A stretch of DNA of 64,000 bases from NCBI RefSeq assembly GCF_024218775.1, contig NZ_CP100404.1, forward strand, positions 3,224,001-3,288,000. The letters are read 5' to 3'. Positions 9,359 through 34,501 of the stretch are shown in pieces. Source of the stretch: Haloarcula marina (lineage in GTDB: Archaea; Halobacteriota; Halobacteria; Halobacteriales; Haloarculaceae). The notes beneath the pieces are model-generated. The model searched no databases, was not told where the DNA came from, and saw only the letters and a program-made list of their open reading frames with translations. Within the stretch, counting starts at the first letter, position 1. Each line of letters begins with the position of its first letter. The position numbers and the translations under genes were made by a program.

Positions 9359-9390
9359 ATTTTGCTAGCAGGCCGACACAACCGGAGTGC

Positions 9391-9400
9391 TTTTATATTT
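9391..9400 (+). promoter_or_regulatory. TATA box of xacF
   Basis: TTTTATATTT lies 26-35 bp upstream of the ATG at 9426. Its shape matches the xacG promoter. A leaderless transcript is likely. Confidence 0.55.
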
Positions 9401-9425
9401 GATTCGGAGATATGCGTGGTACGGA

Positions 9426-10865
9426 ATGGCGTGTCAGAACTATATCGGCGGCGAGTGGCGCGACTCGACGTCCGGTGAGACGATGCCGAGTCGAAACCCA
9501 GCGGTGCCGTCGGAAGTCGTCGGCGAAGTCCCCGTATCGACGGTAGACGACGCGACGGCGGCCGTCGACGCCGCGGCGGCCGCCCGGGAAGCGTGGGCCG
9601 AGACACCCGGCCCGGAACGCGGTGCGATTCTCCGCGAAACCGGGCGACTGCTCGCCGAGCGACGGGACGCAATCGCCGAGACGCTGGTGTTGGAGGAGGG
9701 GAAGACGTGGTCGGAGTCCACCGGGGAGGTCCAGCGAGCGATAGACATCTTCCACTACTACGCGGCGAAGGCCGCCGACATCGGTGGGACGGTCAAGTCC
9801 AGTAGTTCCCGAGCGACCACCCTCTCGGTGCGAACAGAACCGATCGGTATCGTCTCGGCTATCACGCCGTGGAACTACCCCCTCGGCATCCCGGCGTGGA
9901 AAGTCGCACCGGCGCTGGCGACCGGCAACGTCGTCACACTGAAACCCGCGGAGAACGCCGCGGTCACGGCCACTGCCCTGGTGGAATGCCTCGACGACGC
10001 GGGCCTCCCGGACGGCGTCCTCAACCTCGTGACCGGTCCCGGGGACACGGTCGGTGAGGCGCTCACGACCGACGACCGGGTGGACGCCGTCTCCTTCACC
10101 GGGAGCGAGTCGGTCGGCGACATCGTCTACCGGAACGCCGCGCCCGACCAGAAGCGCGTTCAGTTGGAGATGGGCGGGAAGAACCCCACCGTAGTCACGC
10201 CCGACGCCGACCTCGACGCGGCCGTCGACATCGTCGGGTCCGGCGCGTTCGGCGTCACCGGGCAGGCCTGTACCGCCTGCTCGCGGGCCGTCGTTCACGA
10301 GGCCGTCTACGACGAGTTCCTCGAACGCATCGTCGAGTACGCCGAGTCGCTCTCGCTCGGTCCGGGGATGGACGACCCGGACATGGGACCACAGAACAGC
10401 GACAGCGAACTATCGAGCACCCTCGAGTACATCGCCGTCGGGAGAGACGAAGGCGCGGTCCTCGAAACCGGTGGACGCCGCGCCGAAGACGCCGGTGACG
10501 GCTACTTCGTCGAACCGACCGTGTTCGCCGACGTCGACCCGGCCATGCGCATCGCCCAAGAGGAGATATTCGGACCGGTCCTGTCGGTCATCCCGGTCAG
10601 TAGCTACGAGGAGGCCGTCGCAGTCGCCAACGGCGTGGAGCAGGGACTCTCGGCCAGTATCGTGACACAGAATCTCCGAGAGGCGCACCGCTTCGTGGAC
10701 GACATCGACGCTGGTGTCGCGAAAGTCAACGAGAAGACGACGGGTCTGGAACTACACGTCCCGTTCGGCGGCATGAAAGCCTCCTCCAGCGAGACGTACC
10801 GCGAACAGGGCGACGCCGCCCTCGACTTCTACACCCTCAGCAAGACGGTCTATCTAAATTATTGA
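9426..10865 (+). CDS. xacF: 2-oxoglutarate semialdehyde dehydrogenase, XacF-like
   Basis: This 479-residue aldehyde dehydrogenase would catalyse the last step of oxidative pentose degradation, oxidising 2-oxoglutarate semialdehyde to 2-oxoglutarate with NAD(P). The oxyanion Asn is in TPWNYP (N150), the general base Glu248 is in ELEMGGK-like context (QLEMGGK), and the catalytic Cys282 is in GQACTACSR. The start MACQNYIGGEW is chosen over an upstream ATG because it begins the conserved family N-terminus and lies 26-35 bp after a TATA box. It is divergent from xacE. The assignment relies on family membership plus gene context. Confidence 0.85.
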   Translation: MACQNYIGGEWRDSTSGETMPSRNPAVPSEVVGEVPVSTVDDATAAVDAAAAAREAWAETPGPERGAILRETGRLLAERRDAIAETLVLEEGKTWSESTGEVQRAIDIFHYYAAKAADIGGTVKSSSSRATTLSVRTEPIGIVSAITPWNYPLGIPAWKVAPALATGNVVTLKPAENAAVTATALVECLDDAGLPDGVLNLVTGPGDTVGEALTTDDRVDAVSFTGSESVGDIVYRNAAPDQKRVQLEMGGKNPTVVTPDADLDAAVDIVGSGAFGVTGQACTACSRAVVHEAVYDEFLERIVEYAESLSLGPGMDDPDMGPQNSDSELSSTLEYIAVGRDEGAVLETGGRRAEDAGDGYFVEPTVFADVDPAMRIAQEEIFGPVLSVIPVSSYEEAVAVANGVEQGLSASIVTQNLREAHRFVDDIDAGVAKVNEKTTGLELHVPFGGMKASSSETYREQGDAALDFYTLSKTVYLNY

Positions 10866-11734
10866 CGGTCTCGATGCCACGGGGGGCTTTCCGAATCCGC
10901 CGCTCGGTCCGTACAGTCGTAGCTATCGGCCGCCGAGTCGAACTGGAACTACTGTTCAGCTACCACGGAGAGTCCGCCACAAATCTGAAGCGCTGTTCAT
11001 AATGGATGAACGTCCAAAATAACAAACGTACCCTCGTTACCTCAACCGTGTGTATTGTCGACACACCACGAGAACGCGGCTACTGCCGATATTCGGTACT
11101 TTCAGGAACGGCAACACAGGCGATGAGAACAGGTATTGCCGCGGTTACGACAGGCTCGTTCACCCATTCCGAACGACATTTCAGACATCAGGTATACTTC
11201 GTTTGCGCCGATGAACGACGGCCCGATATAGTCGCAAGCAGTCTCCCCGGCGCGAGTGTTGTCCTTGCACACGGTAGAACACATATCTGCGACTATATCC
11301 GTGTCGTAGAGGATAGTAGCCTCGAATTTGTGATTCCTTTAGCTTTTGGACCCATAAAACCACCTAACTAACCTATATGAATATATTTGCCCTAATTTCT
11401 CGCCATATTTTCCTCTTTTCTTTTCTACAAGTGGATTGCTAAGCATATACCGGTATTTCCTAAGTCTACGTAGGTTTTTGATTGTCTTCCGACGCTACCG
11501 ACAGCTACTGGCCGAACTAGAGACACATCCCGTCGGTAGTCGGCCCACGGTCACAGGGGCTGACCGTCTCCCGGAGGACTGTCTCGTTGCCGCCGACCCT
11601 CGCAGTCGTCTGGAAGGCGAGTGCGGCGTCGTCGCCACGTCGAACCGTTCCGCAACCCATCCCGGCCCGGTATCCTCTCGTTACGTCCCGAATTGCCGGG
11701 AATAACTACGGCACGTCCCGCGCGAGACGTGAAT
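10866..11734. other. Gene-poor, AT-richer interval of 870 bp
   Basis: Nothing in this stretch resembles a known protein or RNA. The central 11.0-11.5 kb part is much more AT-rich than its surroundings. An open frame of 121 codons (11006-11371, plus strand) lacks the acidic composition of haloarchaeal proteins and shows no recognisable motif, so it is not called. A 17-bp inverted repeat lies at 10995-11011. The interval separates the pentose cluster from housekeeping genes and may be a decayed insertion. Confidence 0.5.
10995..11011. repeat. Inverted repeat GTTCAT-N5-ATGAAC
   Basis: Perfect 6-bp arms flank a 5-bp spacer. The symmetry resembles a regulator half-site pair, but no gene follows with a convincing reading frame. 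Confidence 0.4.
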
Positions 11735-26002: not shown

Positions 26003-27748
26003 ATGCCGACAGTAGAGAGTCCCGAAGGCACAGTCACCGCTACCGTCTCGCTCAGCGGCGCGGACCAGACCCTCGCCGTCGCACTCGCCGACCGGACCGT
26101 CGTCGAACCGTCCACGCTCGGCCTGACTGCGCCGTTCGACCCACCGACCGAAGACGTCGACCTGCCGACCGTCGAGGACTTCGAGCGCTCGGACCGTACC
26201 GTCTCGGAGACGTTCGCGACGACGTACGGGAAGCGCCGCGAACACAGCCACGAGGCGACCGAATCGGTGTTCGTCTGCGACTTTTCGAACGGCGAGACGG
26301 TCGAACTGACGGTGCGTGCGAGCGCCGAGGGCGTCGCCTACCGCTACCGCCTGCCCGAGACGGGGTCGGTGCTGTTGTTCGAGGACCAGACCGAATTTCG
26401 GTTCCCCGACCGGACGACGACGTGGCTCACGCCGTGGGCCGAGAACCACGAGGCCACCTCGCGGCGCGCGCCTCTCTTCACCGCAGAGGGCCGCTACTGC
26501 ACGCCCGGCCTGTTTCAGGTCGCCGACGACGCGTGGGCGCTGGTCACCGAAGCGGGCGTCGACGGGTCGTATCACGCCGCTAGCCTCCGCTCGCGCGACC
26601 AGACGGCCGCCGTCGAGTTCGAACACCCGTGGACGCCGGTGCGGGCGAAAGGCGCCTTCGAGACGCCGTGGCGCGTCGCCGTGGTCGGTGACCTCGCCAC
26701 CGTCGTCGAATCCGACCTCGTCCCGGCGCTGGTCGACGGGCCGCGCTTCGACCCCGAGTGGGTCGACCCGGGCCGGGTCGCGTGGTCGTGGTGGTCCGAG
26801 AGCGACAGTCCGTACGACCCCGACAGACAGCGTGACTACGTCGACTACGCCGCCGAACGCGGCTGGGAATACGTCCTCGTCGACGAGGGGTGGAGTCCCG
26901 ACTGGCTCCCGGAACTGGTCGAGTACGCCGCCGACCGCGGGGTCGAACTGTTCGTCTGGGCCCACTGGACGGACCTCCACGGGGCCGACGAGCGCCGCGA
27001 GAAACTGGCCCGCTGGGCAGAGTGGGGCGTCGCGGGCGTCAAAATAGACTTCATGGACTCGGACGAACAGGGCCGTCTCCAGTTCTACGACGAACTGCTG
27101 GCCGACGCCGCAGAGCGCGAACTGCTCGTGAACTTCCACGGGTCGGTCGTCCCGTCGGGACTCAAGCGGCGGTGGCCCCACGTCATGACCTACGAGGGGG
27201 TGATGGGGGCCGAACACCTCAAGTGGGCGACGCTGACGCCCGAACACAACGTCACGCTCCCCTTTACTCGCAACGCCGTCGGCGCGATGGACTACACGCC
27301 CGTGACGTTCTCGGCGGACTCGCGACACACCAGCGACGCCCACGAACTCGCGCTGTCGGTGGTGTACGAGTCCGGCCTCCAGCACTTCGCCGACAGCGTC
27401 GACGCCTACGCCACCCGTCCCGACGCCGAGTGGTTCCTCGAACGCGTCCCCGCCGCGTGGGACGAGACGGTGTTCCTCCGCGGCCATCCGGGTTCGGAAG
27501 CGACTATCGCCCGCGAACGCGACGGCGAGTGGTTCGTCGGGTGCATCACCGCCGGTGGGGCGCGCACCGTCGAGACGACGCTCTCAGTACTCGACGGCGA
27601 CCGGGAGGCGACGCTGATTCGTGACCCGAGCGGCGCAGACGAGGCTGACGACGACGGCCTCGTCCGCGAGACGGTGACCGTGGGGCCGGAGACGCCGCTG
27701 TCCGTCGACGTACCCGAAAACGGCGGTTTCGCGCTCTACTGTCCCTGA
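26003..27748 (+). CDS. Glycoside hydrolase family 97 (alpha-glucosidase/alpha-galactosidase)
   Basis: This 581-residue GH97 enzyme has an N-terminal beta-sandwich (residues 1-245, VEGVAYRYRLPE-type segments), a TIM barrel starting at RVAWSWWSE, and a C-terminal beta domain. Barrel motifs are YVLVDEGWSPDW, GVKIDFMDSDEQ and the catalytic-loop TYEGVMGAEH. GH97 members split alpha-galactosides or alpha-glucosides, and either inverting or retaining chemistry occurs. No signal peptide is present, so it acts in the cytoplasm on imported sugar. It is convergent with and overlaps (13 bp) the SDR gene at 27736, and it belongs functionally with GH4 and the importer. Confidence 0.85.
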   Translation: MPTVESPEGTVTATVSLSGADQTLAVALADRTVVEPSTLGLTAPFDPPTEDVDLPTVEDFERSDRTVSETFATTYGKRREHSHEATESVFVCDFSNGETVELTVRASAEGVAYRYRLPETGSVLLFEDQTEFRFPDRTTTWLTPWAENHEATSRRAPLFTAEGRYCTPGLFQVADDAWALVTEAGVDGSYHAASLRSRDQTAAVEFEHPWTPVRAKGAFETPWRVAVVGDLATVVESDLVPALVDGPRFDPEWVDPGRVAWSWWSESDSPYDPDRQRDYVDYAAERGWEYVLVDEGWSPDWLPELVEYAADRGVELFVWAHWTDLHGADERREKLARWAEWGVAGVKIDFMDSDEQGRLQFYDELLADAAERELLVNFHGSVVPSGLKRRWPHVMTYEGVMGAEHLKWATLTPEHNVTLPFTRNAVGAMDYTPVTFSADSRHTSDAHELALSVVYESGLQHFADSVDAYATRPDAEWFLERVPAAWDETVFLRGHPGSEATIARERDGEWFVGCITAGGARTVETTLSVLDGDREATLIRDPSGADEADDDGLVRETVTVGPETPLSVDVPENGGFALYCP

Positions 27749-28566
27749 CGAATCGACTCGGCGTACTCCCTGTACAGTTCGTCCTGCATCACCTGCGTCC
27801 GGCCGCCGTCGACGAGGATGCTCTCCCCAGTGACGAACGTCGCGTCGTCGCTGGCGAGGAAGGCGGCCATCCCCGCTACGTCCGCCGGAGTGCCGAGTCG
27901 GCCCGTCGGGTGAATCGCCTTCGTGTACTCGTACTCCTCGTCGCTGTCGAACTCCGCGCGGGTGCGTTCTATCTCGACCCACCCCGGATTGATGGTGTTG
28001 ACCGTGATGCCGTGGGGACCGAGTTCCAGCGCCATCGCCCGCGTCATCCCGTTGATACCCGCCTTTACGGCATTGTAGGGGTACAGCCCCGGCATCGTCA
28101 GGAACGCGTGGTTCGAGGACATGTTCAGGACGGTGCCGCCTTCGGGCATCGCCTCGACGGCGTGTTTGGCACACAGCCAGAACGACCGGAAGTCCGTCTC
28201 GACGACGAACTCCCAATCGGAGAGGGTGGCCTCGCTGGCCGTCGTCTCCGTCTGGACGCCCGCGTTGTTCACCAACACGTCGACGCGGCCGTACTCGTCG
28301 ACGGTGTGGTCGATGAGCGCCTCGATTTCGGCGGGGTCGCGCATGTCCGCCTGCACGAACGTCGCCTCGCCGCCCTCGTCGGTGATTGTGTCGACGACGG
28401 CCTCTCCGGGGTCGCGGGAGCGGCCGGTGACGACCACCGACGCCCCCTCCGCGGCGAACCGGCGAGCGACGCCCGCGCCGATGCCGCGCGTCGACCCGGT
28501 GACGACGACGACGCGCTGTTCGTGTCTGGTCGGGACGGCGTTCGCAGTCGGGTCTGTCGAACTCAT
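27736..28566 (-). CDS. Short-chain dehydrogenase, candidate sugar dehydrogenase
   Basis: This 276-residue classical SDR has TGSTRGIGAG at the nucleotide site, NNAGVQ, catalytic YNAVKAG and the ending FVTGESILVDGGR. An N-terminal extension of about 16 residues (SSTDPTANAVPTRHEQ) precedes the first strand. It sits between galactosidases and a galactonate-dehydratase-like enzyme, where oxidative galactose degradation (De Ley-Doudoroff route) needs a galactose dehydrogenase. That role is inferred from context and is not visible in the sequence. It is divergent from the M24-fold gene across 114 bp. Confidence 0.8.
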   Translation of the reverse strand: MSSTDPTANAVPTRHEQRVVVVTGSTRGIGAGVARRFAAEGASVVVTGRSRDPGEAVVDTITDEGGEATFVQADMRDPAEIEALIDHTVDEYGRVDVLVNNAGVQTETTASEATLSDWEFVVETDFRSFWLCAKHAVEAMPEGGTVLNMSSNHAFLTMPGLYPYNAVKAGINGMTRAMALELGPHGITVNTINPGWVEIERTRAEFDSDEEYEYTKAIHPTGRLGTPADVAGMAAFLASDDATFVTGESILVDGGRTQVMQDELYREYAESIRQGQ

Positions 28567-28680: not shown

Positions 28681-29775
28681 ATGCTCACGACGAGAAAGCG
28701 CACACAACTAGAGACGGTACTCGCAGAGTACGACGCCGACAGCGCGTGGTTCGCCACGCCGCCGGCGTTCGCGTGGCTGACCGGCGGCGGGAACAACGTC
28801 GTCTCGCTTGCGGACGATACCGGAGTTGCCGCGGTCGGCTACGACGGCGAGGACGTCGTCCTCGTCGCCGACCACATCGAGGCCGACCGACTCCGCGAGG
28901 AGGAACTGGCCGTGGACGCCACCGTCCGCGAGTTCGACTGGTACGACGAGACGCTGGAATCGGCCGTCGCGGAACTGGCGACCGGGGACGCCGTCGCGGA
29001 CTTCGACCTCCCCGGCGCGGAGACGGTCCGCGTGCCGACCCGGACGTTCCCGCTCACCGACTCCGAACGGGAACGGTACCGCGACCTCTCTCGAGAGACG
29101 ACGGAAGTGGTCGAGCGCGTCGCTCGCGACGTGACGCCGGTGATGACCGAGCGCGGGGCCGCCGCCGACCTCGCACACGGCCTGCGCCAGCGGAAGATAG
29201 ACCCGCTTGTGGTACTGGTCGGCGGGGCCGACCGGAGCCAGCGCTATCGGCACTTCACGCCCGGCGACGCGACGTTAGACGAGTACGCCACCCTCACCGT
29301 CGTCGGGCGGCGCGGCGGCTTGCACGCCTGCGTGACCCGGACGGTGGCCTTCGAGACGCCCGAGTGGCTTCCCGACCGCTTCGCGGCGACCCAGCGCGTC
29401 GCGGCGACGGCGCTCCGGGCGACCCAGCGTGTCGGCCGCGACGGTGGGACCGCGGGCGACGTGTTCGACGCGATTCGGGACGCCTACGCCGCCGTCGGCT
29501 ACCCAGAGGAGTGGCACGAACACCACCAGGGCGGGATGACGGGGTACGGCGGCCGCGAGTGGTTCGCCCGACCCGACGGCGAGGACGCCGTGACGCTCGG
29601 GTCGGCCTACGCGTGGAACCCCACGATTCAGGGGACGAAAGTCGAGGACACGGCGCTGGTCACCGAAGCGGACGTTGAGTTGCTGACGGTGACCGGCGAG
29701 TGGCCGACGACGAGCGTCGACCCGGTCGGCGACGGCGCGGCCCTCGAACTGCCTGCCGTGATGAGCCGAGACTAA
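28681..29775 (+). CDS. M24-fold (creatinase/aminopeptidase P-like) protein lacking most metal ligands
   Basis: This 364-residue protein has the two-domain architecture of aminopeptidase P/creatinase: an N-terminal creatinase-like domain (TTRKRTQLETVLAEYDAD, AWLTGGGNN) and a C-terminal pita-bread domain. The metal-binding positions are largely changed. The DxG...D region reads VGRRGGLHACVTRT with no Asp, and the TIEPG Glu is replaced in AWNPTIQG. The His (HHQGGMTGYG) and last Glu (KVEDTALV) remain. It is unlikely to be a dinuclear metallopeptidase. Its placement beside galactonate dehydratase suggests a sugar-related, possibly hydrolytic or lyase role. The function is unknown. Confidence 0.75.
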   Translation: MLTTRKRTQLETVLAEYDADSAWFATPPAFAWLTGGGNNVVSLADDTGVAAVGYDGEDVVLVADHIEADRLREEELAVDATVREFDWYDETLESAVAELATGDAVADFDLPGAETVRVPTRTFPLTDSERERYRDLSRETTEVVERVARDVTPVMTERGAAADLAHGLRQRKIDPLVVLVGGADRSQRYRHFTPGDATLDEYATLTVVGRRGGLHACVTRTVAFETPEWLPDRFAATQRVAATALRATQRVGRDGGTAGDVFDAIRDAYAAVGYPEEWHEHHQGGMTGYGGREWFARPDGEDAVTLGSAYAWNPTIQGTKVEDTALVTEADVELLTVTGEWPTTSVDPVGDGAALELPAVMSRD

Positions 29776-29791: not shown

Positions 29792-30982
29792 TTACCACTC
29801 GGCGACGCTGCCGTCCTCGTGACGCCACACGGGGTTGTGCCAGTTGACCGTCTTCTCGGACTGTTCGCGGACGTACGCCTCGTTGATTTCGATGCCCAGT
29901 CCGGGGTCGTCCGGAATCTGGACGTAGCCGTCATCGTACTCGAACACCGACGGGTCCGCGAGGTAGTCGAGCACGTCCGTCGTCTCGTTGTAGTGGATGT
30001 TGAGGCTCTGCTCTTGAATCAGCGCGTTCGGCGAACAGGCGTCGACCTGCACGCAGGAGGCCAGCGCCACCGGGCCAAGCGGACAGTGTGGAGCGAGCGC
30101 CACGTCGTAGGCCTCGGCCATCGACGCGATTTTCTTGACCTCGGTGATGCCCCCGGCGTGTGAGAGGTCCGGTTGGATGACGTCGACGGCCCCGTCCGCG
30201 AAAATCTCCTTGTAGTCCCACCGCGAGAACATCCGTTCGCCCGTCGCGATGGGGATGGTGGTGTGGGCGGCGATGTCCGGCAGGGCCTCGTTGTGTTCGG
30301 GGAGGACCGGTTCCTCGATGAACATCGGTTCGTGCGGCTCCAAGGCCTTCGCCAGCCGTTTCGCCATCGGCTTCGTGACTCGGCCGTGGAAGTCGACGCC
30401 GATGTCGACTTCGTCGCCGACGGCCTCGCGCACCTCGCGCAGGCGGTTCGCGGCCGCCTCGACGGCCGCCGGGTTGTCCACCCGTTCGATTTCGGCGGTG
30501 GCGTTCATCTTCAGCGCCGAGAACCCGGCGTCGACCTTCTGTTCGGCTTGCTCGGCCACCTCGGAGGGGCGGTCGCCGCCGATCCACTGATACACGCGGA
30601 TGCGATTGCGGGCGGCCCCGCCGAGGAGTTGGTGGACCGGCGCGCCCAACTGCTTGCCCTTGATGTCCCAGAGCGCCTGGTCGATGCCCGCGATGGCGGA
30701 CATGAGCACCGGGCCGCCGCGGTAGAAGCCGCCGCGGTACATCGTCTGCCAGTGGTCCTCGATGTCCTCGGGGTTCTCGCCGAGGAGGTAGTTCTCCAGC
30801 AGTTCCTCAACGGCGGCCCGGACGGTGTGGGCGCGCCCCTCGACGACGGGTTCGCCCCACCCGACGGTGCCGTCGGCCGTCTCGACGCGGAGGAGGAGCC
30901 ATCTGGGCGGCACCTCGAACAGTTCGTAGTCGACGATTCGGTTCCTCGCGCTGCTGTCGGATTGGGATGTGTTCGAACTCAT
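29792..30982 (-). CDS. Galactonate dehydratase-like enzyme (enolase superfamily)
   Basis: This 396-residue mandelate racemase/muconate lactonizing family member is of the D-galactonate dehydratase type. The N-terminal cap domain is followed by a barrel with metal ligands in VDFHGR, MFIEEPV and IATGERM, and the catalytic His in LAPHCPLGP. The product would be 2-keto-3-deoxy-galactonate. An acidic Ser-rich N-terminal extension precedes RIVDYELFEV. It is divergent from the IclR regulator, and the shared 222-bp region carries a copy of the 19-bp operator motif. Other acid-sugar substrates are possible, but the galactosidase neighbours favour galactonate. Confidence 0.82.
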   Translation of the reverse strand: MSSNTSQSDSSARNRIVDYELFEVPPRWLLLRVETADGTVGWGEPVVEGRAHTVRAAVEELLENYLLGENPEDIEDHWQTMYRGGFYRGGPVLMSAIAGIDQALWDIKGKQLGAPVHQLLGGAARNRIRVYQWIGGDRPSEVAEQAEQKVDAGFSALKMNATAEIERVDNPAAVEAAANRLREVREAVGDEVDIGVDFHGRVTKPMAKRLAKALEPHEPMFIEEPVLPEHNEALPDIAAHTTIPIATGERMFSRWDYKEIFADGAVDVIQPDLSHAGGITEVKKIASMAEAYDVALAPHCPLGPVALASCVQVDACSPNALIQEQSLNIHYNETTDVLDYLADPSVFEYDDGYVQIPDDPGLGIEINEAYVREQSEKTVNWHNPVWRHEDGSVAEW

Positions 30983-31154
30983 TGTGGTCGGTCAGTGCGT
31001 GCGGGGGTCGCCCGCGTGACGCCACCGCCGTCGGCGGACCGACGCGTTCCGGACCCGCGGCGGGCCAGTGGCGTTGTCTGTCTCATCGTCCCACAGTTCG
31101 TTAACGCCCCATTTAACCGTTGTGTCAGCGTCGGTGGGCCGCGCCGACCACCAC

Positions 31155-31173
31155 CGTTCACGATGTGCGAACG
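31155..31173 (-). promoter_or_regulatory. IclR-type operator motif, copy a
   Basis: The plus strand reads CGTTCACGATGTGCGAACG, an inverted repeat with CGTTC/GAACG arms and a 9-bp centre. The reverse complement matches two copies behind the IclR gene. It lies between the divergent dehydratase and IclR genes, 32 bp before the IclR ATG, as expected for autoregulation. Confidence 0.6.
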
Positions 31174-31204
31174 ACTTTTGTGCCTCCGGCCGAAATCACG
31201 GTGC

Positions 31205-31963
31205 ATGAACGACGGCCCGCGGGTCAAGACGACCCAAACGAGCTTTCGCATCATCGAGGCGGTGCGGGACAACCGCGGCGCTGGCGTGAGCGAACTCGCC
31301 CGGACGGTCGACCTCTCGAAGTCCGCCGTCCACAAGCACGTCCAGACGCTGACCGAAATCGGCTACCTCGTCCGCGAGGACGACGCGTACTACCTGAGTA
31401 ACCGGTTTCTCAGCCTCGGCAACCGCGCCCGCGAACGACTCCCGCTGGGCCCGGCCAGCAACGTCGTCAACGACCTCGCCGAGACGACCGGCCACGTCAC
31501 GAACTTCATGGCTCACGAGAACGGCCGCGGCGTCTACGCGCTCCGCGTCGAACCCGAGGGCGTCGACCTCGGCGATATCGTCACCGAGGGGGACGTCGCA
31601 CCGCTGCACGCCACCGCCGGAGGGAAGGCGATTCTCGCCTTCTTCTCGAAGGAGAAACGGACCGCTATCCTCGACAGCGTCGGCCTCCCCGCGCACACGG
31701 AGAAGACCATCACCGACCGCCGGGAACTCGAACGGGAACTGCGCTCCATCCGCGACCAGCGCGTGGCCTTCGACCGCGAGGAGTTCATGACGGGCCACCA
31801 GTGTGTCGCCTCGCCCGTCGTCGACCGCAGCGGCGAACCAATCGCCGCCGTCAGCGTCACCGGCAACATCCAGCACATGTCCGGCAAGCGCCTCGAAGAG
31901 GACGTGACCGGCCTCGTCACCAGCGCCGCAAAATCCATCGAGAACGAACTCCTCTCACAGTAG
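31205..31963 (+). CDS. IclR-family transcriptional regulator
   Basis: This 252-residue regulator has an N-terminal winged helix-turn-helix (VSELARTVDLSKSAVHKHVQTL, then the wing YLVREDDAYYL) and a C-terminal IclR effector-binding domain (TTGHVTNFMAHENG, HATAGGKAILAFFSKE, ASPVVDRSGEPIAAVSVTG). The start at 31205 is preferred. An in-frame ATG at 31163 lies inside the operator motif and would add a Cys/Arg-rich extension. It is divergent from the galactonate-dehydratase-like gene. Its probable targets are itself, the dehydratase and other galactoside genes, responding to a pathway sugar acid. Confidence 0.88.
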   Translation: MNDGPRVKTTQTSFRIIEAVRDNRGAGVSELARTVDLSKSAVHKHVQTLTEIGYLVREDDAYYLSNRFLSLGNRARERLPLGPASNVVNDLAETTGHVTNFMAHENGRGVYALRVEPEGVDLGDIVTEGDVAPLHATAGGKAILAFFSKEKRTAILDSVGLPAHTEKTITDRRELERELRSIRDQRVAFDREEFMTGHQCVASPVVDRSGEPIAAVSVTGNIQHMSGKRLEEDVTGLVTSAAKSIENELLSQ

Positions 31964-31964
31964 C

Positions 31965-31983
31965 TGTTCTCGCATCGTGAACG
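31965..31983 (+). promoter_or_regulatory. IclR-type operator motif, copy b
   Basis: TGTTCTCGCATCGTGAACG begins one base after the IclR stop codon. It matches copy c at 17 of 19 positions. Confidence 0.55.
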
Positions 31984-32161
31984 CTCCGCGTGCGAACCGT
32001 TTTCACGTCGCCGTTCCCGCCGCCCGCCTCCCGCAGTCTAGAACGTGAACGTGGCCCGTTCGACGCCACAGCGGCCGGGAACGGCCTCGACGTGCCGATA
32101 ACGACTGGTTCTAACAACGATACGTGTGTTATCTTAGGTCGACTAGCAGTGAGAGCGGTAT

Positions 32162-32180
32162 CGTTCTCACATCGTGAACG
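32162..32180 (+). promoter_or_regulatory. IclR-type operator motif, copy c
   Basis: CGTTCTCACATCGTGAACG differs from the reverse complement of copy a at only one position (T for G at position 6). It lies about 90 bp left of an AT-rich TATA-like element. Confidence 0.6.
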
Positions 32181-32512
32181 GAGCTTGGAGCGGTACGGCG
32201 CGACGACGAGCGTCCTCGGTTCGCCGCCCATGGTCGAGACCAGTAATATCAGAGATGTGTGATAGTCGTATATAATATATTAGTGTACGTAGATAAGCTA
32301 GCAGATATGCACTCATATCATATCTTCACCAGTATCGGGCGGTTAGATGTGAGTTTGGAGAAGAGTATCGTCAGCTATGGCTTGTAGGGTTTTTCTCACG
32401 TGAGTCTACCGAACACGGCTGTTTCGGAAGCTTAATCCTCTCTTCGGAGAATCTTGACCGGAATAGGCCAACACAACTGTTTCTCAATACATTTCGAATA
32501 TAGTTTGGATTC

Positions 32513-34501
32513 TTATATAGCTTCGCGCACGTCTTCGACCGCGGCTTCCACGACAGCCACGTCGAACGCGTCGACGGTGTCGCCGCCGACGAGGAACGAC
32601 GCGTCCCCGGGCACGTCGAGCGACACCGGTTCGCTCGTGAAGTTCGTGACCCACGTGTAGCCGTCTCGATGTGCCAGGCGCACGCCGTCGGGAAGCGGGT
32701 CGGCGTGGTCGACGCCCGCCGCGCCGAGCAGGTCCGCGACGAGTGCGTCCGCGAGGCCCTCGCCGGGCCAACAGCCGACGGTGGTGACGCTCCCCTCGCC
32801 GACGCGGTTGTGCGCGACGGCGGGTTCCTCGGCGGCCTCGCCGGAGCGGTAGCGCCCGCGCGTCTCGGCCGCGTCCGGGTCGAGCCATCCGGCCCACGTC
32901 TGGTAATCGTACGTCTCGCCGTCGTAGCCGACGCGGGTGTCGAACTGCGCGGGAAGGCTCTCGTGGCGACTCACGCGGACCCCCGCGAGGTCGGCGAGGG
33001 GGCCGGGCGCGAGCGTCTCGTGCAGTTGGTTATACGGGTCCTTCTCGCCGGTGCGCGCGCCCAGCAGGAGGTGCCCGCCCGACTCGACGTAGTCGGTGAG
33101 ACGGCCCGCGAGGGCCTCGCCCGCGAGATACAGCGTCGGCGCGACGACGGCGGCGTAGCCGTCGAGGTCGGCAGACGGCGGGACCACGTCGACCTGCACG
33201 CCCCGTTCGCGGAGCGCGTCGTAGTAGGCCCGCAGGTGCGACCAGTAGTGCCAGTCCGGAGAGTGAGGCTGAATATCCGTCGCCCACAGGCTCTCGTAGT
33301 CGTGGAGGAGGGCGACGGGCGCGTCCACCGGGTCGAGGTCGAACAGTTCCGGGGCGGTGGCGGCGGCGTCGCGGTACCCCTTGTCGGGACTGCCGTCCTG
33401 CTTGCGGAGGCCCGCGTGGTACTGCTCTTGCCCTTGGCGACAGCGCCGCCAGCGGAAGTAGAGGACGGCGTCCGCGCCGTGAGCGACGGCGTGGTGCGCC
33501 CACAACCGCATCGCCCCGTCGCCGGGTTGGGGCGCGTGGGGCGGCCAGTTCACGTCGCCGGGTTGCTGTTCGAGCACCCAGAACGGCGTCTCCGGCCCGC
33601 GGTAGATGTCGTGGTTCAGGCCGATTTCGTCCGGGTCGCCCGCCCGCAGTTCGTCCGTCGTCGGGTCGCCGGGTTGCCGGTCTTGGACGAATCCCGTGGG
33701 GTAGGAGTCCCATCCGAGAAAGTCGAGGTCGTCGGCCAGCGAGTAGGCGTCCAGCGTCGGGAAATCGCCCATGAAGTTGTGGGTGACGAACCACTCGTCG
33801 TTGGCCGCCCGAATCAGGTCGGCGTGCAGGCGGTTGTACTCGACGACGCTGTCGTTCGCGAAGCGGTAGTAGTCCAGCAGGCGCGAGGGGTGATGTTCGG
33901 CTGGCGTCGGTCCAGGCAGGTCGACTGCCTCGAAGTCTGGGTACTGCTGGCTCCAGAAGGTGTTGCCCCACGCCTCGTTCAGCGCGTCCACGTCGCCGTA
34001 CTTGGCTTCCAACCACTCGCGGAACGCCGCCGCGCAGTCGTCACAGTAACACCGCACCGTGCGGTGACAGCCGTACTCGTTGTCGGCCTGCCACCCGGCG
34101 ACGTGCGGATTGTCGGCGTAGCGCTCCGTGACCGTGCGGACGATGCGTTTGGTCTCCTCCCGGTACGTCGGCGAGTTGAAACACGTGAACCGGCGGCTCC
34201 CCCATTCGCGGGGCGTGCCGTCGGCGTCGGCCTGCCGCACGTTGGGGTGCTCGTCGACCAGCCACTTCGGCGGCGTCGCCGTCGGCGTACACAACACCGC
34301 CTGCATGCCGTGGTCGCCGACGAGTTCGATGGCCTCGTCGAGCCAGTCGAAGTCGAATTCGCCGCGTTCGGGTTCGATGCGCGCCCACGAGAACTCCGCC
34401 ATGCGGACGTACTCCAGTCCCGCGTCGGCCATCTGGGCCACGTCCGTCTCCCAGCGCTCGCTGGGCCAGTGCTCGGGGAAGTAGCAGACTCCGAGTGTCA
34501 T
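32513..34501 (-). CDS. bgaH: Beta-galactosidase, glycoside hydrolase family 42
   Basis: This 662-residue GH42 enzyme hydrolyses terminal beta-galactosides. The catalytic barrel starts MTLGVCYFPEHW. The acid/base is Glu142 in ADNEYG, and the nucleophile region is FWVLEQQPGDVNW. The structural zinc site is complete (Cys107, Cys151, Cys153, Cys156). A trimerisation domain (GYAAVVAPTLYLAG) and a small C-terminal beta domain follow. No signal peptide is present, so it is cytoplasmic and salt-adapted. The size and family match the known haloarchaeal bgaH enzymes. A TATA-like CGTATATCG lies 22-30 bp upstream of the ATG. Confidence 0.9.
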   Translation of the reverse strand: MTLGVCYFPEHWPSERWETDVAQMADAGLEYVRMAEFSWARIEPERGEFDFDWLDEAIELVGDHGMQAVLCTPTATPPKWLVDEHPNVRQADADGTPREWGSRRFTCFNSPTYREETKRIVRTVTERYADNPHVAGWQADNEYGCHRTVRCYCDDCAAAFREWLEAKYGDVDALNEAWGNTFWSQQYPDFEAVDLPGPTPAEHHPSRLLDYYRFANDSVVEYNRLHADLIRAANDEWFVTHNFMGDFPTLDAYSLADDLDFLGWDSYPTGFVQDRQPGDPTTDELRAGDPDEIGLNHDIYRGPETPFWVLEQQPGDVNWPPHAPQPGDGAMRLWAHHAVAHGADAVLYFRWRRCRQGQEQYHAGLRKQDGSPDKGYRDAAATAPELFDLDPVDAPVALLHDYESLWATDIQPHSPDWHYWSHLRAYYDALRERGVQVDVVPPSADLDGYAAVVAPTLYLAGEALAGRLTDYVESGGHLLLGARTGEKDPYNQLHETLAPGPLADLAGVRVSRHESLPAQFDTRVGYDGETYDYQTWAGWLDPDAAETRGRYRSGEAAEEPAVAHNRVGEGSVTTVGCWPGEGLADALVADLLGAAGVDHADPLPDGVRLAHRDGYTWVTNFTSEPVSLDVPGDASFLVGGDTVDAFDVAVVEAAVEDVREAI

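Follow-up and report, generated by a model that had tools for sequence, protein, structure and literature searches.

A probable dgoD-linked operator array in Haloarcula that may have been kept while its IclR-type regulator was exchanged

To our knowledge, few archaeal operator sequences are known. One regulator that invites comparison with the locus described here is GacR, which reportedly belongs to Haloferax volcanii. GacR, a regulator of the IclR type, activates haloarchaeal galactose catabolism (Tastensen et al. 2020, as cited in PMC11519228) and, as summarized in that citing paper, resembles the regulator considered here in being an IclR protein linked to galactose catabolism. XacR of Haloferax volcanii is an IclR-type sugar activator of pentose catabolism (Johnsen et al. 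2015, as presented in passages of PMC6085418, PMC10448506 and PMC6737238), and the promoter of xacR holds a negative semi-palindromic element that, in the passages of PMC6085418 on this gene, is said to cover the WW motif. MscR of Haloarcula hispanica is described as the IclR-type activator of a mannitol/sorbitol cluster in passages of PMC11519228, where XacR, GacR, RhcR and MscR are all presented as activators; the words 'palindrom' and 'promoter' are absent from the main text of that paper. The XacR passages of PMC6085418, PMC10448506 and PMC6737238 make no mention of sites behind a stop codon or of regulator exchange. In our literature search we recognised no report of the consensus, of the second palindrome (pal2) or of the post-stop operators presented below, with earlier publication being possible, for example in the original XacR and GacR papers.

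The locus lies in a 64-kb stretch of Haloarcula marina NZ_CP100404.1, the whole of which was analysed and is called the window; the genome to which it belongs (G000) has 3.74 Mb. An IclR-family regulator of 252 aa is encoded on the plus strand at 31205..31963, with a stop codon that ends at 31963 and the recognition helix SKSAVHKHVQTL. Its product carries both domains by which the family is recognised, an N-terminal HTH_IclR (PF09339, 42.5 bits, cut-off 22) and a C-terminal IclR_C (PF01614, 116 bits, cut-off 24). Divergent from iclR is the galactonate dehydratase gene dgoD (29792..30982, minus strand; NF010624, 678 bits, cut-off 311), before which the array stands, while a GH42 beta-galactosidase gene (32513..34501, minus strand) converges with iclR and leaves a gap of 549 bp between the two gene ends. 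An SDR dehydrogenase gene at 27736..28566 on the minus strand likely encodes a galactose dehydrogenase; an SDR gene also adjoins dgoD at loci L071, L072, L073, L080, L081 and L125, and no SDR match stands beside dgoD at L074-L077 or L083. The window cluster further includes a GH97 gene and an M24-peptidase-like gene (26003-27748 and 28681-29775), neither of which has a match in the corresponding stretches of the iclR-less loci L080, L081 and L125.

Like a GacR-type protein, the window IclR is encoded in a galactose/galactonate cluster beside dgoD. The galactose/galactonate regulator that a sequence-only reading of this DNA had proposed agrees with the neighbours dgoD, SDR, GH42, GH4 and GH97, and is less easily reconciled with four sister species that keep the sites without iclR. 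As far as the cited passages describe XacR, it serves pentose catabolism, whereas the window array stands beside galactose/galactonate genes; MscR shares with the window IclR both its type and the genus Haloarcula, and the cluster attributed to it in those passages is that for mannitol/sorbitol.

Three copies of a 19-bp palindrome surround iclR, each a putative operator. Site 1 (CGTTCGCACATCGTGAACG, 31155..31173, minus strand) lies in the gap between the divergent dgoD and iclR genes. Site 2 (TGTTCTCGCATCGTGAACG, 31965..31983, plus strand) begins at the second base past the iclR stop codon, and site 3 (CGTTCTCACATCGTGAACG, 32162..32180, plus strand) starts 197 bp beyond it, both within the convergent gap. 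The sequence-only reading had located all three copies and their strands, which we confirm. They are near-identical, as it held, with pairwise differences of 1, 2 and 3 rather than of one or two, and the promoter context holds for copy 1, in the divergent gap, and not for copies 2 and 3, which stand in the convergent gap and in no iclR promoter. No other copy was found in the window at up to 3 mismatches, where chance would give a mean of 0.31 and three were reached in 1 of 100 dinucleotide shuffles.

The exact 19-mer does not define a regulon. In a scan of the 3.74-Mb genome at up to 2 mismatches the three copies are the sole matches, and we rejected the genome-wide regulon of this sequence. 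Eight more places match with exactly 3 mismatches (reversed-pattern control, none), five of which lie inside at least one GC3-rich ORF. At up to 3 mismatches the 19-mer precedes none of the window's GH42, GH4, GH97 or ABC genes, which makes for a small predicted regulon. A role of sites 2 and 3 as a GH42 promoter was also rejected, since both are positioned at the 3' end of that gene. Across 146 genomes of the family, matches at up to 2 mismatches number 86 against about 53 in the control, a hand count and only a moderate excess; 61 of the 146 genomes have such a match, as controls do too, and many of these matches consist of CGCTCGCGCATCGTCAACG, a sequence that recurs, or its near copy. The relaxed palindrome GTTCRC-N5-GYGAAC occurs at 5 places in the own genome, including site 1, with 0 in the control. 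In the window alone GTTC-N9-GAAC is not in excess (10 places vs 9 each for spacers 5 and 6), and a single repeated sequence accounts for three of the 10, including one within an ABC ATPase gene.

It is at iclR genes that the palindrome stands out. We fetched 120 iclR loci, 109 of them distinct and usable, in a sampling led by similarity to the window protein. GTTC-N9-GAAC occurs upstream at 69 sites in 51 of these 109 loci and downstream at 33 sites in 23, compared with 0-5 upstream and 0-4 downstream for the other spacers from 3 to 16; many of the loci are orthologues of each other, so that these counts are not independent. Enlarging the set to 124 loci gave 80 upstream sites, of which 55 have their end 30-70 bp short of the start codon as estimated from alignments, and site 1 of the window belongs to the same class, being a YGTTC-N9-GAACR site 30-70 bp before the iclR start. 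Downstream sites are densest at the stop codon, with 13 within -20 to +30 and 6, 5, 5, 5 and 3 in the next 50-bp bins. Exact post-stop sites are found in 13 of the 124 loci from several genera, including Saliphagus, Halegenticoccus (two species), Natrinema and Natronolimnohabitans. The GTTC-N9-GAAC palindrome marks haloarchaeal iclR genes, and its fixed spacer upstream of so many of them means that the operator reading is well supported.

Upstream sites are unevenly distributed over recognition-helix classes, being present in 16 of 23 HKH, 20 of 39 HN, 5 of 10 YKH and 10 of 17 other loci, and in 0 of 20 HDH loci. For dgoD-linked orthologues, with half-sites chosen by hand, the third base after GTTC is G in 12, A in 9 and C in 3 of 24 half-sites next to HKH proteins; next to YKH proteins it is T in 16, C in 3 and G in 3 of 22, all three G coming from one genome (G088). 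Species without iclR have 12 G and 12 A among 24, which is the HKH kind. Within the orthologous group, the inner bases vary, as far as these half-sites indicate, with the recognition helix of the adjacent IclR. Together with the fixed 9-bp spacer class, this agrees with the operator for a dimeric IclR protein that the sequence-only reading had predicted. A simple helix-to-base code across all IclR subfamilies was rejected; the relation is valid only inside the orthologous group, G088 excepted.

Between sites 2 and 3 lies a second palindrome, pal2 (CTAACAACGATACGTGTGTTATC, 32111..32133), which follows the pattern TAAC-N4-GTAC-N4-GTTA with one mismatch here. Allowing up to one mismatch, the own genome holds this pattern at 24 distinct places, and the control gives 1. 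Near the 109 iclR loci, TAAC-N12-GTTA is found 23 times downstream and once upstream, other spacers from 6 to 18 giving 0-2. The two palindromes keep company, in that 21 of 56 distinct pal2 sites in the fetched loci have a GTTC-N9-GAAC-like site (up to one mismatch) 45-70 bp away, 8 being flanked on both sides, and exact N9 sites within 200 bp of pal2 number 26, compared with 3 for six other spacers together.

Conservation was followed in seven species, namely the window species, its nearest relatives with an orthologous iclR (G011 and G023, 82% identity) and four species without iclR (G024, G021, G016 and G008). In none of the seven does site 1 have more than one arm change; in G011 and G023 its outer arms are kept (one arm change in G023) and its inner bases changed. 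The likely TATA/BRE region of iclR (ACTTTTGTG, 31174..31182, plus strand) touches site 1, and a TTTT-rich box directly follows site 1 in the three species with iclR. Sequence and conservation point to a dgoD TATA-like box at 31111..31116 on the minus strand, separated from site 1 by 38 bp in the window, by 28 bp in G023 and by 35-37 bp in the four species without iclR; in G011 the box was not scored by the pattern, and that species has no spacing figure. Site 1 thus stands upstream of the TATA-like boxes, unlike the XacR element, which covers the WW motif according to the passages available on it. Site 2 has the same position in G011 and G023 with two changes in one arm, and the spacing from site 2 to site 3 is 196-198 bp in these two relatives. 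Site 3 is recognisable in all seven species with 0-2 arm changes. Some retained sites are degenerate, site 2 of G016 being the worst with three arm changes.

In the seven-species alignment, site 2, pal2 and site 3 form the conserved islands of the region from site 2 to site 3, and no further conserved ORF or RNA-like block was seen between the sites. Compared across clades, with the four iclR-less species on one side, the operators score identities of 0.82, 0.71 and 0.68 and pal2 scores 0.75, against a mean of 0.36 for other 19-column windows (n=203); the highest of these reaches 0.74, matching sites 2 and 3 and pal2, so that the question is not settled by identity and the palindromic pattern has to be considered too. 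The sites are kept across species while their flanks diverge, as the unrelated flanks of the three copies had already suggested. GH42, which the window has in intact form and which also occurs in the four species without iclR, is reduced to remnants 3' of iclR at L071/L072; in the alignment by eye only remnants are seen in G011 and G023, with a 44-aa blastp match in the G023 locus L262.

In the four iclR-less species no iclR lies between dgoD and GH42, yet all three sites and pal2 are present, and a search for iclR remnants between sites 1 and 2 gave none that convince (best E 0.046 for blastn and 0.59 for tblastn). Since these four sister species keep the sites without iclR, the window array appears not to be tied to the adjacent IclR alone. 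A dgoD search gave matches in 65 of 146 genomes; among the best 30 loci, 29 of them distinct (G039 and G040 having the same sequence), 12 carry palindromes in the dgoD/iclR region and 17 do not, two of the latter (L108 and L113) having one stray match elsewhere. The dgoD tree has 28 rows and contains a clade (support 93/97) without the iclR ortholog, in which the array is present in four early-branching members and absent in 14. The window species, G011, G023 and the outgroup rows G062, G063, G064 and G088 carry both iclR and array, while outgroup rows G058, G059 and G061 are without the array. The midpoint root is weakly supported, and loss of iclR in this clade is therefore only the likelier direction, compared with gain, and no proof.

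The iclR-less species that keep the array have another candidate regulator. Across the 32 genomes of the genus, Haloarcula taken broadly, relatives of the HKH-helix paralogue of G024 (C5:66624) at 59% identity or more are found only in G024, G021 (two), G016 and G008, the next best genome reaching 45% and none occurring in G000, G011 or G023. This paralogue is present in all 4 iclR-less species with the array and in 0 of the 14 array-less ones, the lineages being too few for a p-value; in the 14 sister species with neither regulator the array is absent. The genes of the G024 and G021 paralogues are themselves preceded, at 81 bp, by a site of this kind, and an exact site is found at the own gene of neither the G008 nor the G016 paralogue (two of the four).

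From these comparisons, we consider it probable that the three palindromes and pal2 form a conserved operator array of the dgoD/galactose operon serving a GacR-like IclR regulator, and that the regulator was exchanged while the operators stayed. A dimeric IclR-type regulator would bind the YGTTC-N9-GAACR sites. From site 1, which precedes the TATA-like box of dgoD by 38 bp, it would activate dgoD, and through the same site iclR may regulate itself, probably by repression, since site 1 abuts the iclR core promoter; the spacing and the contact with the iclR box fit an IclR activator of dgoD that controls its own gene. Sites 2 and 3, with no promoter of their own in view within the window, most likely cooperate with site 1, for example through a tetramer bridging two sites. 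In the window lineage, as in several outgroups, iclR is enclosed by the array, with site 1 on one side and site 2 on the other; where one Haloarcula clade is missing it and four members keep the array, another HKH-helix IclR probably took over. The fullest version of this proposal seems to us about evenly balanced between true and false: that the array outlived its regulator, iclR being lost inside it in one Haloarcula clade, a non-orthologous IclR paralogue with a matching helix taking over the three operators and the array vanishing where neither regulator remained, and that the operators often found both before and behind iclR genes, the downstream one no more than about 30 bp from the stop codon, reflect control across the gene by looping.

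Sites 2 and 3 admit other readings. Both lie in a convergent gap and face the start codon of no evident gene, as would suit relics of an older promoter, for instance of a gene once downstream of iclR, with site 1 as the sole working operator, and elsewhere a pal2 flanked by two operator-like sites directly precedes the likely target gene at iclR loci (e.g., L128/L188). We regard this as unlikely, in view of sites that are recognisable at similar places in seven species despite diverged surroundings, that persist in G011 and G023, where only GH42 remnants are left, as well as in the four iclR-less species, and that recur behind the stop codon in 13 of 124 iclR loci from several genera. Slightly less credit is due to the idea that an unannotated transcript, for instance a small RNA from the gap or an RNA antisense to iclR, is under the control of site 2, pal2 and site 3. 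An AT-rich, TATA-like patch does follow site 3 (about 32269-32282), and several relatives have AT-rich stretches there, but neither its position nor its sequence is conserved across the seven species, whose alignment shows no further conserved block.

If some non-IclR factor bound the palindromes and iclR were a mere neighbour, this would account for the four species that keep the sites without an adjacent iclR. Against this stand the recurrence of palindrome and spacer 30-70 bp ahead of iclR genes, in many cases and across many genomes, the lack of an upstream palindrome at all 20 HDH-helix loci and the inner bases that differ with the helix inside the orthologous group, and we find such a factor highly improbable. 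An IclR-bound array accordingly remains our preferred reading, and the sequence-only reading was largely right about the operator, its claims as a whole being partly supported.

A nearer view of GacR comes from a Haloferax lucentense plasmid (L371), where an IclR gene directly follows dgoD in a galactose cluster; its neighbours make its product the likely counterpart of Haloferax GacR. It is 42.9% identical to the window IclR, a value similar to that of other IclR paralogues. This iclR has a palindrome-like site in front and another at about 130 bp to its rear, both carrying a single arm mismatch; with 9 such weak sites in the 18.7 kb scanned the flanking pair alone proves little. The Haloferax locus differs from the window in having no site in the dgoD promoter and another gene order.

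Taken further, the consensus would be testable for a large class of haloarchaeal IclR regulators, could assist the sequence-based prediction of haloarchaeal sugar regulons and might supply compact operators for archaeal genetics. The Haloarcula clade would serve as a natural experiment in which regulators are exchanged and the operators conserved. The second widespread palindrome, pal2, makes its binding protein a candidate for discovery; by eye, several of its genome copies lie near IclR-, TrmB- or ABC-like genes (L157-L171). A pal2-like site at G000:C1 917756-917778 stands about 130 bp from a 3-mismatch copy of the 19-mer (917906-917924) at an ORF start. Behind iclR genes of the AKST[VI]HNHL class, at L128/L188, L187, L205 and L211, pal2 is flanked on each side, at about 58 bp, by an operator-like site, and at L128 this composite stands, by eye, directly before an aldolase-like gene. 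The window itself holds a second set of operator-like site, pal2 and operator-like site (10994-11012, 11020-11039 and 11157-11175), which lies behind an aldehyde dehydrogenase gene (9387-10865).
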